A stretch of DNA of 6,899 nucleotides from Candidatus Poribacteria bacterium (GTDB lineage Bacteria; Poribacteria; DTPJ01; WJIO01), in NCBI GenBank assembly GCA_014730235.1, contig WJIO01000112.1, positions 1 to 6,899 on the forward strand, written 5' to 3'. Below, in pieces: positions 860 to 6,786 of this stretch. A program made the position numbers and the translations under genes. The notes under the pieces were generated by a model. It was given only the letters and a program-made list of their open reading frames with translations, had not been told where the DNA came from and did not search any database. Each line of letters opens with the position of its first letter. Positions within the stretch are counted from its first letter, which is position 1.

Positions 860-3481
860 TTGTCAAAGAATCTAACGCCTCTCATGAGGCAGTATCAAGG
901 AATAAAACGCAATTATCCTGATTCCATTCTGTTTTTCAGGATGGGCGATTTTTACGAGACGTTTTATGAAGATGCAAAGATCGCATCCCGGGTTTTAGGA
1001 ATAGCTCTTACAGCTCGTGATAAAAACAGAGGGGAACCTATACCCCTGGCTGGTGTTCCTTACAAAGCCGCCGATACTTACCTGACCAAGTTTATCAAGG
1101 CTGGATATAAAGTGGCTATATGCGAACAGGTGGAAGACCCTAAAAAAGCCAAAGGGTTAGTAAAACGGGAAGTAATAAGGTTAATCACTCCAGGAACTGT
1201 CATTGAACCAAATATTCTGGACAAAAAAACTAATAATTATCTGGCATCTGTAAGTCAGATAGACAACCTGTATGGCTTTGCCCACGTTGACCTTTCCACC
1301 GGTGAATTTTCTGTTACGGAGTTGGATACGGAAAATAAATTACTGGCGGAGATGGAACGTATACATCCAGCCGAATGTCTTATAAGCGAAAAATTTCGCC
1401 AGGAAAACAGATTGATGGATGCTGTTTCAGCATCCATCAATCCTGCTGTTAATTACCTGCCTGCATGGTCTTTTTCCCCTGAAACGGCCAGGAGTGAACT
1501 TCTGGAGCACTTCCACATTATATCTCTGGATGGTTTTGGCTGTGAAAACATGCCCGGGGCTATCAGCGCTGCCGGTGCGCTTATATATTACCTGAACGAC
1601 ACCCAGAAGCAGGAAGTAAAGCATATACAAACCCTGAGTACATATTCTATCGAACAATATATGATCCTGGATGCTGACACACAGCGTAACCTGGAATTGC
1701 TGCGTTCCCTTCGGGACGCTTCTACCAAGGGAACTTTGCTGGAAGTATTAGATGAATCCCTTACGCCTATGGGTGGTCGCAAACTCCGGCAATGCCTGTT
1801 AAGACCACTTATAGATGTAGATCAGATAAAAGCCCGGTTGGATGCTGTGGCTGAATTCCACAGCAAGATAATATTTCAGGATGATTTCCGGGAAATCCTT
1901 AAAGATATGCACGATTTGGAGCGTCTCATAGCCCGTATCAGCCTTGGAACAGCCAATGCCAGGGATATGCTGGCTCTGAAGACTTCCCTGCGCCTTCTTC
2001 CTTTACTTAAAGAAAAGCTGGATACATGCGAGGCAACGCTTTTATGTATTCTCAATGAAGAACTGGAAGATATATCCGATGTGGCTGATTTGATAGAAGT
2101 CTCTATCCATGAGGATCCCCCTACAACTCTTACTGAAGGTCATATTATAAAAGATGGTTACAATGAAGAGCTTGACGAACTCAGAAAGTTAAGCTCAACC
2201 GGTAAAGACTGGATCGCAAATCTTCAAGAGACTGAACGGAAACGCACAGGTATTAACTCCCTTCGTATAGGTTACAACGATACCTTTGGTTACTATATTG
2301 AAGTCACAAAGGCAAATCTGGAATCAGTGCCGGAAAATTATGTTCGTAAGCAGACGCTGGTAAACTCTGAACGCTTTATAACTCCTGAACTTAAGGAGCA
2401 CGAATCCAAGATACTGAATGCACAGGAACGCATGGAAGAAATTGAATATGATCTTTTTTGTGAGATAAGAAACAAGGTTTCGGAAAGTACCCAGCGGATT
2501 CAGAAAGCCGCTTCTATCGTGGCTATGCTGGATGTTTTGAGTGCCTTGGCTAATGTGGCTTCCAAACACAACTACATCAAACCCAATGTAAACGAAAGTG
2601 ACGAGATTATCATTAAAGGTGGTCGGCATCCGGTGGTTGAACAGTTTACAACTGGCGAGGGATTTGTGCCAAATGATGTAAATCTGGACTGCGATGAACA
2701 GCAGATGATTATTATCACGGGTCCAAACATGTCGGGAAAATCCACATATCTTCGTCAGGTAGCCCTGATAGTGCTGATGGCCCAGATGGGAAGTTTTGTA
2801 CCGGCCTCAGAAGCATCTATTGGCATTGTAGACAGGATTTTTACAAGGGTTGGTGCATCGGATAATCTGGTAATGGGAAGAAGTACATTCCTTGTGGAGA
2901 TGAACGAAACGGCTAATATACTTAATAACGCATCCAGAAGAAGCCTATTGATCCTGGATGAAATAGGCCGGGGAACAAGTACTTATGACGGCCTCAGCAT
3001 CGCATGGGCTGTGGCGGAACATATCCTGGATAAAACAAAAATAGGCGCAAGAACACTGTTTGCCACTCATTATCACGAACTGGTGGAACTGGGGGAAAAA
3101 CACGAAGGGGCAAGAAATTATAATGTAGCCGTAAGAGAAAAAGAAGACCAGATTGTGTTTCTACGCAAGATCGTAGAAGGTGGTACAGACGAAAGCTACG
3201 GAGTACATGTGGCCCAACTGGCTGGGTTACCTGTAGAAGTGGTTGAAAGAGCCAATGAAATACTGAAAAGGCTGGAAGAAAAAGGTGGTAAAAGAGAAAA
3301 TCTTCCCGAACCCCATAAAGTTCCTACCAATATAGAATATGTAGAACCTGTGCAATTGTCTTTGTTTGGGTCAAAGGCTGATGAAATTATAGACGAAATA
3401 ATCGCTGTGGATATAACCAATATGACTCCATTACAGGCATTGAATAAGCTTCAGGAATTAAAGAAAAAAGCGCAGGATTGA
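860..3481 (+). CDS. mutS: DNA mismatch repair protein MutS
   Basis: An 873-residue, full-length bacterial MutS (the family is usually about 850-880), which binds mismatches and small loops in new DNA and recruits MutL. The mismatch-recognition domain (about 1-115) contains GDFYE with Phe31 and Glu33, the F-x-E wedge. The connector domain (about 125-265) includes DLSTGEF, followed by the lever/core and clamp with RKQTLVNSERFITPELKE. The ATPase domain has Walker A TGPNMSGKST (620-629, Lys627) and Walker B LLILDEIGRGTST (Asp700, Glu701), then a helix-turn-helix with ESYGVHVAQLAGLP. QLSLF at 832-836 is a typical beta-clamp binding motif, and the tail ITNMTPLQALNKLQELKK is the C-terminal oligomerisation helix. 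The start is TTG at 860: the conserved LTPLMRQYQ begins at residue 5, so a later ATG would cut conserved sequence. It lies between an oxidoreductase and a nitrilase-like gene and no mutL follows. Codons 184-195 coincide with a perfect inverted repeat, described separately. Confidence 0.98.
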   Translation: MSKNLTPLMRQYQGIKRNYPDSILFFRMGDFYETFYEDAKIASRVLGIALTARDKNRGEPIPLAGVPYKAADTYLTKFIKAGYKVAICEQVEDPKKAKGLVKREVIRLITPGTVIEPNILDKKTNNYLASVSQIDNLYGFAHVDLSTGEFSVTELDTENKLLAEMERIHPAECLISEKFRQENRLMDAVSASINPAVNYLPAWSFSPETARSELLEHFHIISLDGFGCENMPGAISAAGALIYYLNDTQKQEVKHIQTLSTYSIEQYMILDADTQRNLELLRSLRDASTKGTLLEVLDESLTPMGGRKLRQCLLRPLIDVDQIKARLDAVAEFHSKIIFQDDFREILKDMHDLERLIARISLGTANARDMLALKTSLRLLPLLKEKLDTCEATLLCILNEELEDISDVADLIEVSIHEDPPTTLTEGHIIKDGYNEELDELRKLSSTGKDWIANLQETERKRTGINSLRIGYNDTFGYYIEVTKANLESVPENYVRKQTLVNSERFITPELKEHESKILNAQERMEEIEYDLFCEIRNKVSESTQRIQKAASIVAMLDVLSALANVASKHNYIKPNVNESDEIIIKGGRHPVVEQFTTGEGFVPNDVNLDCDEQQMIIITGPNMSGKSTYLRQVALIVLMAQMGSFVPASEASIGIVDRIFTRVGASDNLVMGRSTFLVEMNETANILNNASRRSLLILDEIGRGTSTYDGLSIAWAVAEHILDKTKIGARTLFATHYHELVELGEKHEGARNYNVAVREKEDQIVFLRKIVEGGTDESYGVHVAQLAGLPVEVVERANEILKRLEEKGGKRENLPEPHKVPTNIEYVEPVQLSLFGSKADEIIDEIIAVDITNMTPLQALNKLQELKKKAQD
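1410..1442 (+). repeat. 15-bp perfect inverted repeat with 3-nt loop inside mutS
   Basis: GATTGATGGATGCTG (1410-1424), TTT (1425-1427), CAGCATCCATCAATC (1428-1442). The two arms are exact reverse complements. The repeat is in frame and encodes part of R184-N194 of MutS in the connector domain. As RNA it would form a very stable hairpin within the coding region. No U-tract follows on either strand, so it does not look like an intrinsic terminator. Confidence 0.9.
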
Positions 3482-3498: not shown

Positions 3499-4263
3499 AT
3501 GAAACTTCGCGTTGCATTAGCACAAATTCCCGTAACCAGAGAAATAGAATCCAATATTAAAGCTATAGAACGGGGTATGCAGTTTGCTGTAGAGGAAAAA
3601 GCCCATATATTACTTACTCCTGAAGGTTCTTTAAGTGGATATACCCATGATTTTAACGCAGAGGATGTCTATAAATCCCTGGAATATATAACTCAAAAGG
3701 CCAGAAGCTTGAAATTAGGGCTGGCCCTGGGAACATGCTTTGTAGAACCTGAAGATGGAAAATGCTACAACCAAATACGATTCTATACACCCGAAGGTGA
3801 ATATCTTGGTTTCCATAGCAAAACATTGACCTGCGGCAGTATGACAGACCCACCCCAGGGGGAGATCAATCACTATGCAGTTAGTCTTCTCAGGACATTT
3901 GAATTCAAAGGGATTACCATAAGCGGTCTAATATGCAACGACCTGTGGGCAAATCCCGGATGCACACCCATGCCGGACCCTCATCTTACCCATCAGTTAT
4001 CAAAGATGGGTGCAAATGTCATATTCCATGCTGTCAACGGTGGAAGAAGCAAAAGCGAATGGTCTGACGTGGCCTGGAATTACCATGAATCAAACCTGAG
4101 AATGAGAGCCCAAGCCAGCAATATATGGATCGTAACTGTAGATAACTGCTATCCTGAGGATACAAGGTGCTCATGTCCATCCGGGGTTATTGATCCCCAT
4201 GGAAATTGGGTCTGCAAGACTGAATCAATGGGGGAACAATTTGCAAGCTACAGCATCGGTTAA
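3499..4263 (+). CDS. Carbon-nitrogen hydrolase, nitrilase superfamily
   Basis: A 254-residue protein with the Glu-Lys-Cys triad of the nitrilase superfamily: Glu42 in LLTPEGSLSGY, Lys108 in FHSKTLTC and Cys146 in GLICNDLW. The N-terminal strand MKLRVALAQIPVT and the segment WNYHESNLRMRAQASNIWIVTVDN are also typical. Members hydrolyse the C-N bond of amides, carbamoyl compounds or nitriles in the cytoplasm through a thioimidate or acyl-enzyme intermediate. The substrate is not evident; the usual amidase or N-carbamoyl hydrolase sub-motifs are not clear enough to choose. No signal peptide is visible. It is somewhat short for the family (commonly 260-300) and ends right after the final strand (GEQFASYSIG). 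Its TAA overlaps the stop of the convergent gene. A good Shine-Dalgarno 5 nt upstream and a 17-bp gap after mutS point to a shared transcript. Confidence 0.9.
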   Translation: MKLRVALAQIPVTREIESNIKAIERGMQFAVEEKAHILLTPEGSLSGYTHDFNAEDVYKSLEYITQKARSLKLGLALGTCFVEPEDGKCYNQIRFYTPEGEYLGFHSKTLTCGSMTDPPQGEINHYAVSLLRTFEFKGITISGLICNDLWANPGCTPMPDPHLTHQLSKMGANVIFHAVNGGRSKSEWSDVAWNYHESNLRMRAQASNIWIVTVDNCYPEDTRCSCPSGVIDPHGNWVCKTESMGEQFASYSIG

Positions 4264-5666
4264 AAACTCACATCCTCCACAAAATCACCTATCCTTATCC
4301 GCGCTTCGTCAATATTTGTTATCTGTTTGCCATTGACAGTAAGATTCTCTATTTTAACACCTTTTACCTTGTGTTTTTCATCATAACCAACGAAATACGA
4401 GCCGGGAAAACATTCTCCTGTTACAGATATTTCTTTGAATAGAATGTTTTGTATATTACCCCGCTCTTTGTCATGGGAGTAGTTATTTTCCCTGATAATC
4501 AATACAAAAAGCTGAGGGCAGTATTTATCTTTTTCATTTATGCTGTATTTTTGATCTCTTGAAGATTGATATATGGGTAAAAGCGGGTTTTCTTCGATTT
4601 CAAACCGTATGTCCTCAAACCTTATGTTTTTAATTAACGCCCGGTCTCCATGCTGTATATCCATTGCTATGTGTACGGTATGGATTATATCGCAGTTTTT
4701 AAAGGTGATATCGCTTATCTCCGGCGCGACAGTTTCTGCGCCGATTTCCATTGCTCTACCCCAGTCGTTCCATATAACGCAGTTAGTCACCAGCATATTT
4801 TTAACTGGTTTATCGCCGGTTCCCCTCAGACCTTTTACCACTATACTATCATCAAATGAGCGGATAAAGCAATTATCAATGGTAACGTTGCGGCTGTTTA
4901 CTATATCAATGCCATCGGCATTATAACGCCAGAATCCTATGAGTTTGATGTTGGATATGTCCAGATTTTCACAATCCCGGGGAGTGATTGCCCAGACATT
5001 TGAATCCCGGATTATAATACCCTCTATTTTCACGTTCTGACATTTATGAAGGGTTATGGGGCCAGGATTTCCCTCACGCTTGAAGGTGCTGGTATCCAGT
5101 ATACCACGACCAAGTATACGGATGTCAGAAGTATTTGAAGATGTTACAAGACCGTGAACCACCGCGCCGCCAGCTATATAAACTGACTCACCGGTTTTTA
5201 GTTCTATTTTACCCGGGTTATGTATTCCCGGGGCAAAATGATAAACGTCGGGATCATCTGGTTCTGGAACATTTTCCTCAATTTGACTGACGAATATATG
5301 TAAGGCATGGTGTATGCCATTTATCTCTACGGTAGCATAGCCGGGTTCAGGCATCTGAAAAATTATCCTGTTGCCTTCAACTAGAGGTTTTATGTTATGG
5401 GATTTTGGACGAATATCAACCTTTTCTACCGGAATATTTGATACAACCTCCACATCAGCCGATCCGGACATATCCCAGTATACAAAAGAAGCCATCTCAG
5501 TTTGCTCCAGAGGCCTTTGGTATCCAGGCCAGACCTGGTTAAGGGGTACGGCAGAAACCCTGGCTTTATAGACAAATACAGGTTTTCCATTAACCTTGAC
5601 GGAATAATCCTCTGAAGGTGATTCATCCCCCGGTTGAGAATATATCTTAATATCCGAAATACTCAT
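4260..5666 (-). CDS. GH28/GH49-like glycosidase, possible independent translation from an internal ATG
   Basis: The ATG at 5666 (Met326 of the long frame) would give a 468-residue protein, 8 nt after a GGAGG core. It starts with a beta-sandwich (about 328-452 in long-frame numbering: VKVNGKPVFVYKARVS, then GYATVEINGIHHALHIFV), a GH49-type N-terminal layout. A right-handed beta-helix follows, opening with FAPGIHNPGKIELKTGESVY and AGGAVVHG. Active-site motifs are NADGID (574-579) and FDDSI (596-600), so the three acidic residues of GH28 enzymes are present (Asp576, Asp597, Asp598). The GHG position appears as GRAMEIG (628-634), with Arg instead of His, and no clear RIK motif follows. Such proteins cleave glycosidic bonds in pectin-like or dextran-like polymers by inversion; the substrate here is unknown. 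No signal peptide is present, so this form would be cytoplasmic. Domain identity is firm; separate expression is inferred. Confidence 0.5.
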   Translation of the reverse strand: MSISDIKIYSQPGDESPSEDYSVKVNGKPVFVYKARVSAVPLNQVWPGYQRPLEQTEMASFVYWDMSGSADVEVVSNIPVEKVDIRPKSHNIKPLVEGNRIIFQMPEPGYATVEINGIHHALHIFVSQIEENVPEPDDPDVYHFAPGIHNPGKIELKTGESVYIAGGAVVHGLVTSSNTSDIRILGRGILDTSTFKREGNPGPITLHKCQNVKIEGIIIRDSNVWAITPRDCENLDISNIKLIGFWRYNADGIDIVNSRNVTIDNCFIRSFDDSIVVKGLRGTGDKPVKNMLVTNCVIWNDWGRAMEIGAETVAPEISDITFKNCDIIHTVHIAMDIQHGDRALIKNIRFEDIRFEIEENPLLPIYQSSRDQKYSINEKDKYCPQLFVLIIRENNYSHDKERGNIQNILFKEISVTGECFPGSYFVGYDEKHKVKGVKIENLTVNGKQITNIDEARIRIGDFVEDVSF

Positions 5667-6641
5667 AGTCTTATCCTCCCCAAAAGCAAAGCTGTTAAGC
5701 AAAAATAGCATTAAAAAAGCGACAAAAGCTGCACCTATTACTGTAAATACCCATCCTGCAAATATATTAATCAACGTCTTTTTATTAACCATACCTGTTC
5801 CTTTTACCAGACCAACGCCTATCACCGCTCCTACCACAGCCTGAGAACTGGAAACCGGAACGCCGATCTGAGTGAAAATGTGTAAAGTAAAGGCTTCGGA
5901 TAAAACGGCAACCAATGCGGAAAATGGGGAAAGCTGGGTTATCTTTTCACCCACTGTATACATGACGTTTCGGCTGTATGTCAATACACCTATGGTTATA
6001 CTTATACCACCTAAAACAGTAGCCCGAAAAGGTGATATTAACCCCGCTCCAACATAAGCACCCATTACGTTGGCCAGGTTATTGGCTCCAAGGCTATAGG
6101 CAGCATAGCAACCTATAACTATGGATAGTATTTTTACTGTATAATTGAAAGTCATAAGATTTTTAACGCGCTTTTGCCAGATGAAAGCCAGTATATGATA
6201 ACATACAAAAGCTATTAATGCCCCACCAATTGGCGTAGCTATCCATGATATGACAATTTTGATAAGCCTGGTATAATCAATAGAACCCTGGTTAAAAATA
6301 GATAAACCGATAATACTTCCCACAACTGCCTGAGTTGCTGACACTGGTATCCGGAGATAGCTCATCACATTTACAACCAGAGCGGCTGAAAAAGCTGATA
6401 ATATAGCCTTTGTAAGATTTATATCCGCTATACCCCCAATGGTATCAAGGCCGCTCTGTCCTTCCAGTATTGCACCAATAACTATGAAAACCGCAGAAAG
6501 AGTAACTGCCTTCCAATACCTTATGATCCCGGAATTAACCTGAGGCCCGAAAACATTTGCCGCGTCATTACTACCTAATCCCCATCCAAGATATAATCCG
6601 GGTATGAATTTTAATACTGTCTTGATGTATATGGATAGCAT
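4260..6641 (-). CDS. PiT-family inorganic phosphate transporter fused to a GH28/GH49-like beta-helix glycosidase
   Basis: One uninterrupted 793-codon frame with two unrelated parts. Residues 1 to about 320 form a complete PiT (PHO4) phosphate permease: about ten hydrophobic segments and an internal duplication, with GSNDAAN (23-29) and IPVSATQAVVG (98-108) in the first half echoed by GANNLAN (185-191) and VPVSSSQAVVG (261-271) in the second. PiT proteins take up phosphate, usually as metal phosphate with H+ or Na+. Residues 326-793 are a beta-sandwich plus parallel beta-helix glycosidase (see 4260-5666). The linker GEDKT is only a few residues, and its DNA carries a strong ribosome binding site and an ATG, so the frame may be a recent join of two genes, or a sequencing indel. 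The ATG at 6641 has no clear Shine-Dalgarno; an in-frame TAG lies 18 nt upstream and no other start precedes the first membrane segment. The 3' end overlaps the convergent nitrilase-like gene by 4 bp. Confidence 0.8.
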   Translation of the reverse strand: MLSIYIKTVLKFIPGLYLGWGLGSNDAANVFGPQVNSGIIRYWKAVTLSAVFIVIGAILEGQSGLDTIGGIADINLTKAILSAFSAALVVNVMSYLRIPVSATQAVVGSIIGLSIFNQGSIDYTRLIKIVISWIATPIGGALIAFVCYHILAFIWQKRVKNLMTFNYTVKILSIVIGCYAAYSLGANNLANVMGAYVGAGLISPFRATVLGGISITIGVLTYSRNVMYTVGEKITQLSPFSALVAVLSEAFTLHIFTQIGVPVSSSQAVVGAVIGVGLVKGTGMVNKKTLINIFAGWVFTVIGAAFVAFLMLFLLNSFAFGEDKTMSISDIKIYSQPGDESPSEDYSVKVNGKPVFVYKARVSAVPLNQVWPGYQRPLEQTEMASFVYWDMSGSADVEVVSNIPVEKVDIRPKSHNIKPLVEGNRIIFQMPEPGYATVEINGIHHALHIFVSQIEENVPEPDDPDVYHFAPGIHNPGKIELKTGESVYIAGGAVVHGLVTSSNTSDIRILGRGILDTSTFKREGNPGPITLHKCQNVKIEGIIIRDSNVWAITPRDCENLDISNIKLIGFWRYNADGIDIVNSRNVTIDNCFIRSFDDSIVVKGLRGTGDKPVKNMLVTNCVIWNDWGRAMEIGAETVAPEISDITFKNCDIIHTVHIAMDIQHGDRALIKNIRFEDIRFEIEENPLLPIYQSSRDQKYSINEKDKYCPQLFVLIIRENNYSHDKERGNIQNILFKEISVTGECFPGSYFVGYDEKHKVKGVKIENLTVNGKQITNIDEARIRIGDFVEDVSF
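5674..5681 (-). promoter_or_regulatory. Strong internal ribosome binding site at the transporter-glycosidase joint
   Basis: On the minus strand GGGGAGGA is followed by TAAGACT and then ATG (5666-5664). The GGAGG core lies 8 nt from the ATG. It sits in codons for G-E-D within the long frame. It is a better site than the one at the transporter's own start, which suggests the glycosidase had, or still has, its own initiation. Confidence 0.65.
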
Positions 6642-6667: not shown

Positions 6668-6786
6668 GTTCTTCCGGGTTAAGTGTGGTTATAATTGAAA
6701 ATTCCCTCAGCTTGTCATTCCTGCGAAAGCAGGAATGACAGCATAAAAAAGTTTCTTGTCTTTACCACATTGAACCCGGAAGAGCT
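6668..6786. mobile_element. 119-bp MITE-like element with terminal inverted repeats and central palindrome
   Basis: The terminal inverted repeats are 6668-6689 (begins GTTCTTCCGGGTT) and 6764-6785 (ends AACCCGGAAGAGC), 19 of 22 positions complementary. AATAACCT flanks the element on both sides. At the exact centre (6713-6740) is a perfect 12-bp palindrome with a GAAA loop, and the two arms between centre and ends are both 23 nt. There is no coding capacity, so it must be mobilised in trans. The 8-bp duplication and CTTCC-type ends recall ISL3-family elements from memory, but no transposase is in the window to confirm it. It lies 19 bp upstream of the PiT start codon, including the duplication. 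Confidence 0.75.
6713..6740. repeat. REP/dRS3-like perfect hairpin at the centre of the MITE
   Basis: TGTCATTCCTGC (6713-6724), GAAA (6725-6728), GCAGGAATGACA (6729-6740). A 12-bp perfect stem with a GNRA-type tetraloop. The ATTCC...GGAAT core resembles the dispersed dRS3-type palindromes known from Neisseria and similar short repeats in many bacteria. No U-tract directly follows on either strand, so terminator function is doubtful. Confidence 0.85.

Follow-up and report, generated by a model that had tools for sequence, protein, structure and literature searches.

Organization of the open frame and its surroundings

The locus analyzed here raises the question of whether a 793-codon open reading frame encodes one composite protein or two adjacent genes whose frames have merged. 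The frame is positioned on the minus strand at 4260 to 6641 of the window, i.e., the whole stretch of DNA that was analyzed, which corresponds to the entire 6,899-bp contig C28; the draft genome comprises 451 contigs, with 91.6% completeness and 4.8% contamination. An earlier note on this DNA had described a single frame, and inspection of the sequence confirmed that it runs from an ATG at 6641 to a TAA at 4262 to 4260 with no internal stop codon; the open frame is real in the assembly. No second PiT and no further copy of its GH28/GH49-type enzyme were detected in the genome. Both modules are of known kinds, a PiT permease and a sugar-cleaving enzyme, each of them ordinary.

Analysis of the surroundings revealed an unbroken frame for MutS (860 to 3481; 873 aa), whose start codon is apparently TTG, and an unbroken amidase frame on the plus strand (3499 to 4263; 254 aa). 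The amidase gene is convergent to the glycosidase, and the two stop codons overlap at 4260 to 4263. A palindromic repeat of approximately 117 bp (6668 to 6785) is located immediately upstream of the PiT start and has 20-nt terminal inverted repeats (TCTTCCGGGTTAAGTGTGGT) and a perfect inner hairpin (TGTCATTCCTGCGAAAGCAGGAATGACA). Scoring of 40 of 869 first-look candidates placed the repeat at no fewer than about 40 further genomic sites with 83 to 95% identity, with copies in loci L098 to L107. The repeat is a MITE- or REP-like element, and its copy number is probably much above these 40 or so sites. The only DUF47/PhoU_div gene detected in the genome (L108) is localized on contig C96, away from PiT, next to genes that look like pstA, pstB, phoU, and mutL.

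The N-terminal half is a complete PiT/PHO4-family permease

Residues 1 to 325 (positions 5667 to 6641, minus strand) were classified as a PiT/PHO4-family permease on the basis of Pfam, an AF2 model, and the ends of related proteins. Pfam PHO4 (PF01384) matched residues 23 to 308 with 192.9 bits (cut-off, 33.7), covering positions 2 to 350 of the 350-position profile. The AlphaFold model of this half (pLDDT 93.0) superposed on TmPiT (Protein Data Bank entry: 6L85) over 312 residues at 1.9 Å with a Z score of 41.7, and the next best match reached a Z score of 5.7. The motif pairs named in the earlier note were found as claimed, GSND and GANN together with PVSATQ and PVSSSQ. The first signature (GSND) contains the phosphate-linked Asp and the second (GANN) does not, a difference that the earlier note had missed. 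In the subclade to which this PiT belongs, Asp is mostly kept in the first signature (GAND/GSND) and Asn is found in the second; GANN is common to the closest relatives (L077 to L079, L081, L082, and L084).

The nearest PiT relatives, from genomes that belong to the same class and phylum as a clostridial metagenome-assembled genome (MAG), show 40 to 45% identity and have stop-to-stop frames of 318 to 373 aa. These proteins stop 6 to 18 residues past the column of window residue 310, and the window PiT has 16 residues from that column before M326 is reached. This match between the ends of the relatives and the 16-residue tail indicates that the permease is complete at the joint, its C-terminus being reached naturally around residues 316 to 325. 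A DUF47 protein is a common partner of bacterial phosphate PiTs, and in the relatives examined (L077, L078, and L081) a PhoU_div/DUF47 gene is positioned directly upstream of PiT. Phosphate transport has been tied to Asp in both PiT motifs, and both motif Asp residues are absent from the sulfate transporter CysP (PMC5840216). Judged against this pattern, the one signature Asp that is kept makes phosphate a likely substrate of the window PiT. The N-terminal half is thus probably a permease for an anion, plausibly phosphate.

The C-terminal half resembles GH28 and GH49 enzymes

Residues 326 to 793 (468 aa; positions 4260 to 5666, minus strand) were assigned to a glycosidase of the GH28/GH49 type by Pfam, profile, fold, and invariant columns. 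Pfam Glyco_hydro_28 matched residues 522 to 687 with 55.7 to 57.9 bits (cut-off, 22.9) and also matched 19 of 19 members of the enzyme alignment, and the enzyme profile matched polygalacturonases and one GH49 dextranase. The AlphaFold model of this half (pLDDT 90.9) consists of an N-terminal beta-sandwich and a right-handed beta-helix, and its first 10 or so residues are less ordered (pLDDT 78). Superposition of the whole half with GH49 isopullulanase and dextranase gave Z scores of 30 to 32.5 (roughly 30 to 33) over 405 to 412 residues at 2.6 to 2.8 Å, the two-domain GH49 fold being matched in entries 1WMR, 3WWG, 6NZS, and 1OGM. The beta-helix superposes on GH28 enzymes as well.

Comparison of the conserved residues revealed NxDG(I)D (D576 and D579) and DD (D597 and D598). 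The GH28 catalytic residues D576, D597, and D598 are invariant in the relatives and are aligned to 3JUR and 5OLP. The His of the GH28 motif GHG is absent; in the family profile, DWGKALEIGAE takes the place of GH-TLLGIGSE in 5OLP. As judged from its sequence and predicted fold, this half is best named a GH28/GH49-type glycosidase. Pfam, the confident AlphaFold models, and the fold matches bear out the description in the earlier note of a full permease followed by a full glycosidase.

The joint carries a strong internal ribosome-binding site

The two proteins abut without a linker. In the AlphaFold model the last helix of PiT ends at residue 323, three residues short of M326, and the PiT tail is hydrophobic up to about residue 322. 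The internal ATG that encodes M326 (5664 to 5666, minus strand) is the proposed start of the glycosidase gene, based on alignment to the first Met of the relatives, and a Shine-Dalgarno (SD) sequence, GGGGAGG (5675 to 5681, minus strand), is positioned 8 nt ahead of it. The anti-SD duplex energy of this context (GGGGAGG-N8-ATG) is -11.4, which ranks first among the 281 ATGs in the window; the corresponding energy at the PiT start is -2.4. The earlier note had overlooked this site, although it combines the best SD sequence of the window with the point at which the enzyme relatives begin.

Within the joint region (5663 to 5713, minus strand), the PiT frame has no stop codon. The other two frames contain TAA codons that precede the M326 ATG by 47, 31, and 7 nt, and a TGA in an alternative frame overlaps this ATG as ATGA. 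The spacing of these out-of-frame stops matches that of ordinary adjacent genes. Since stops in both other frames are found no more than 47 nt from the joint, one small change, either in the genome or in the assembly, can merge the frames. Homopolymer runs (TTTTTT, TTTTT, and GGGG) are present immediately ahead of the joint, and the GC content is even across it (0.39 to 0.43). A promoter scan between the two halves revealed nothing clear.

Relatives of the enzyme are free-standing

A peptide-pattern search of approximately 85,000 species genomes revealed relatives of the enzyme in 20 of them, and all 20 are free-standing frames. The best relatives (51 to 52% identity) were found in two Firestonebacteria MAGs, and the others mostly in gut Clostridia. 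They match the joint frame only from about residue 306 to 346 onward, and in most of the 20 the first Met (often "MS") is at M326 or a few residues from it; the exceptions are L031, which has an N-terminal extension, and L026 and L027, in which the start is ambiguous. Seventeen starts were listed for analysis of the start region, of which L025, whose start had been assigned to an incorrect codon, was left out and 16 were used. An in-frame stop was located 4 to 33 codons upstream of the start in all 16, and the SD energy was -8.0 or better in 13. None of the 20 loci contained a PiT frame in the DNA retrieved around the enzyme gene, and the window query detected no PiT in 14 of 16 host genomes tested.

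The long N-terminal extension of L031 (296 to 2032; a Hydrogenedentota MAG) contains a signal-peptide-like stretch (KKILMVVCLFIACSALHAQS); in the other enzyme relatives no signal peptide was recognized by eye. The clostridial enzymes L021, L023, L024, L026, L027, and L033 carry an extra C-terminal region of about 230 residues on the glycosidase, and a Pfam scan of L023 recognized only the GH28 part. In Firestonebacteria locus L018 (4001 to 8542), the gene for the GH28/49-type enzyme precedes those for a xylose-isomerase-like protein, a sulfatase, and an IclR regulator. This gene set suggests a sugar catabolic cluster, and the sulfatase may point to a sulfated substrate.

No fused homologue was found in the collections searched

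No fused homologue was found in 84 genomes of the phylum of the window, in which PiT frames measured 570 aa or less, and the single genome of the same order contained neither the PiT nor the enzyme gene. The search of 45 genomes from the phylum in which the nearest enzyme relatives occur likewise revealed no fusion; one 656-aa frame (G126) gave a weak PiT match over residues 213 to 316 only, with the enzyme not covered. For the nearest PiT relatives, 291 genomes from their class and 398 from their phylum gave the same result; the approximately 155 PiT frames listed from the 398 genomes measured 265 to 438 aa. No fusion was found by peptide patterns across the approximately 85,000 species genomes, nor in viral contigs or among 141 plasmid records with a match, and the first titles of a literature search on PiT and GH28 showed no described fusion. 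Across all collections searched, not one independent genome carried the PiT-glycosidase architecture.

The C-terminus of PiT is predicted to face outward

The numbers of Lys and Arg residues in the PiT loops are 11 in odd and 4 in even loops of the window protein, and the relatives have means of 11.7 and 3.5, respectively. This alternating charge places both PiT termini outside. Published topology models of PiT2 disagree, and one of them has extracellular termini (PMC3126765). Taken with this divided literature, the loop charges suggest that the PiT C-terminus probably faces outward, in line with the earlier note. A read-through product, if made, would display the enzyme outside the membrane, which is possible but unsupported, and a free product starting at M326 would be cytoplasmic.

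Two merged genes as the preferred explanation

Very probably, the frame comprises two genes without a selected fusion, with the joint explained by faulty assembly or by a local mutation of recent origin. This explanation is preferred because the enzyme keeps a strong SD sequence of its own and stands alone in all relatives found, because the closest PiT relatives (45 to 40% identity) end where the window PiT meets M326, because two full proteins abut with no linker, and because the contig is a 6,899-bp fragment of a 451-contig draft. Two complete, unrelated genes, for a PiT-family anion permease and then a cytoplasmic-type GH28/GH49-like glycosidase, would lie in tandem on the minus strand. 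Translation of the glycosidase would begin at M326, for which it has a strong ribosome-binding site of its own, and we infer from the sequence that the enzyme is made mainly as a free protein of 468 residues. The PiT frame would happen to have no stop ahead of the glycosidase, owing to a minor mistake in assembly or to a local mutation that arose recently in this one lineage, and the joint would not represent a conserved, selected composite protein. If the stop-free joint is genomic, some read-through protein, its enzyme domain facing outward, would be formed beside the free enzyme. About half of the likelihood given to two genes falls to assembly error. An artefact of this kind, a small error in the last part of the PiT gene that hides its stop, has by itself somewhat less than an even chance; the homopolymer runs, the other-frame stops at typical operon spacing, and the short contig of a fragmented draft are consistent with it, but the MutS and amidase frames are unbroken and short-read assemblies rarely contain small indels.

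Against two genes, the frame is fully open with a PiT tail that is hydrophobic almost to M326, the ancestral state at the exact joint was not seen in relatives, and a fusion restricted to one unsampled lineage would escape such searches. A lineage-specific gene could give two products: a read-through PiT-glycosidase, which would display the enzyme outside the membrane with no need of a signal peptide, and a cytoplasmic free enzyme initiated at M326. Such a functional fusion, in which PiT displays the glycosidase on the outward-facing side of the membrane, perhaps together with free enzyme, is considered unlikely. The uninterrupted frame and the predicted outward C-terminus fit it, the less ordered first residues of the enzyme could act as a tether, and the signal-peptide-like extension of L031 suggests that export of such enzymes may occur. 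However, not one second example was present among the 20 enzyme relatives, the approximately 155 PiT frames, and the 141 plasmid records, the internal SD sequence and start are fully kept, a linker is absent, and the enzyme relatives other than L031 appear to have no signal peptides. A chimeric contig, in which the assembler joined PiT and glycosidase from different genomes, was considered and set aside because the composition is even across the joint. The best matches of the halves do differ (a Clostridia-class genome at 45% for PiT and Firestonebacteria at 51% for the enzyme), but a well-spaced SD sequence sits at the joint and the high-copy repeat upstream of PiT is native to the same genome, and this origin is very improbable.

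The modules and the frame in the earlier note stand, and so, probably, does the outward PiT C-terminus. Its proposal of one functional protein tying glycan breakdown to phosphate uptake is not supported, given the optimal start of the enzyme itself, the 20 of 20 free-standing relatives, and the PiT relatives, none of which is fused to such an enzyme. The check suggested in that note, whether relatives carry separate genes, spoke against fusion for each relative found, all of them neither close nor syntenic. If the fusion were true, a cytoplasmic-type glycosidase would be exported by being attached to a transporter at its outward-facing terminus. The case for merged genes carries a caution: a linker-less open frame of two known modules with a strong internal SD sequence should be read as two genes first.

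Comparison with known systems

The window PiT shares the whole fold, both signature regions, the length, and the C-terminal end with TmPiT (6L85) and the short clostridial PiTs. It differs from TmPiT and the PiT family in having GANN, with Asp replaced, and SxxQ in place of SxxH, as do its closest clostridial relatives. The short clostridial PiTs have an adjacent DUF47/PhoU_div gene, whereas that of the window's genome is on contig C96. The best NCBIfam match of the window PiT is the CysP sulfate permease (SulfPermCysPBac), but its 128.9 bits are well under the curated equivalog cut-off of 400 bits, and CysP is without both signature Asp residues, whereas the window PiT is without the second only. 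The enzyme shares its beta-helix and the NxDG(I)D and DD Asp pattern with GH28 polygalacturonases and galacturonidases (3JUR, 5OLP, and 1BHE), from which it differs by the added N-terminal beta-sandwich and by WG(R/K)xxEIGAE in place of GHG. Both of its domains superpose on GH49 dextranase and isopullulanase (1OGM, 6NZS, and 1WMR), although in the Pfam GH49 model the enzyme reaches only noise (13.3 bits; cut-off, 27).
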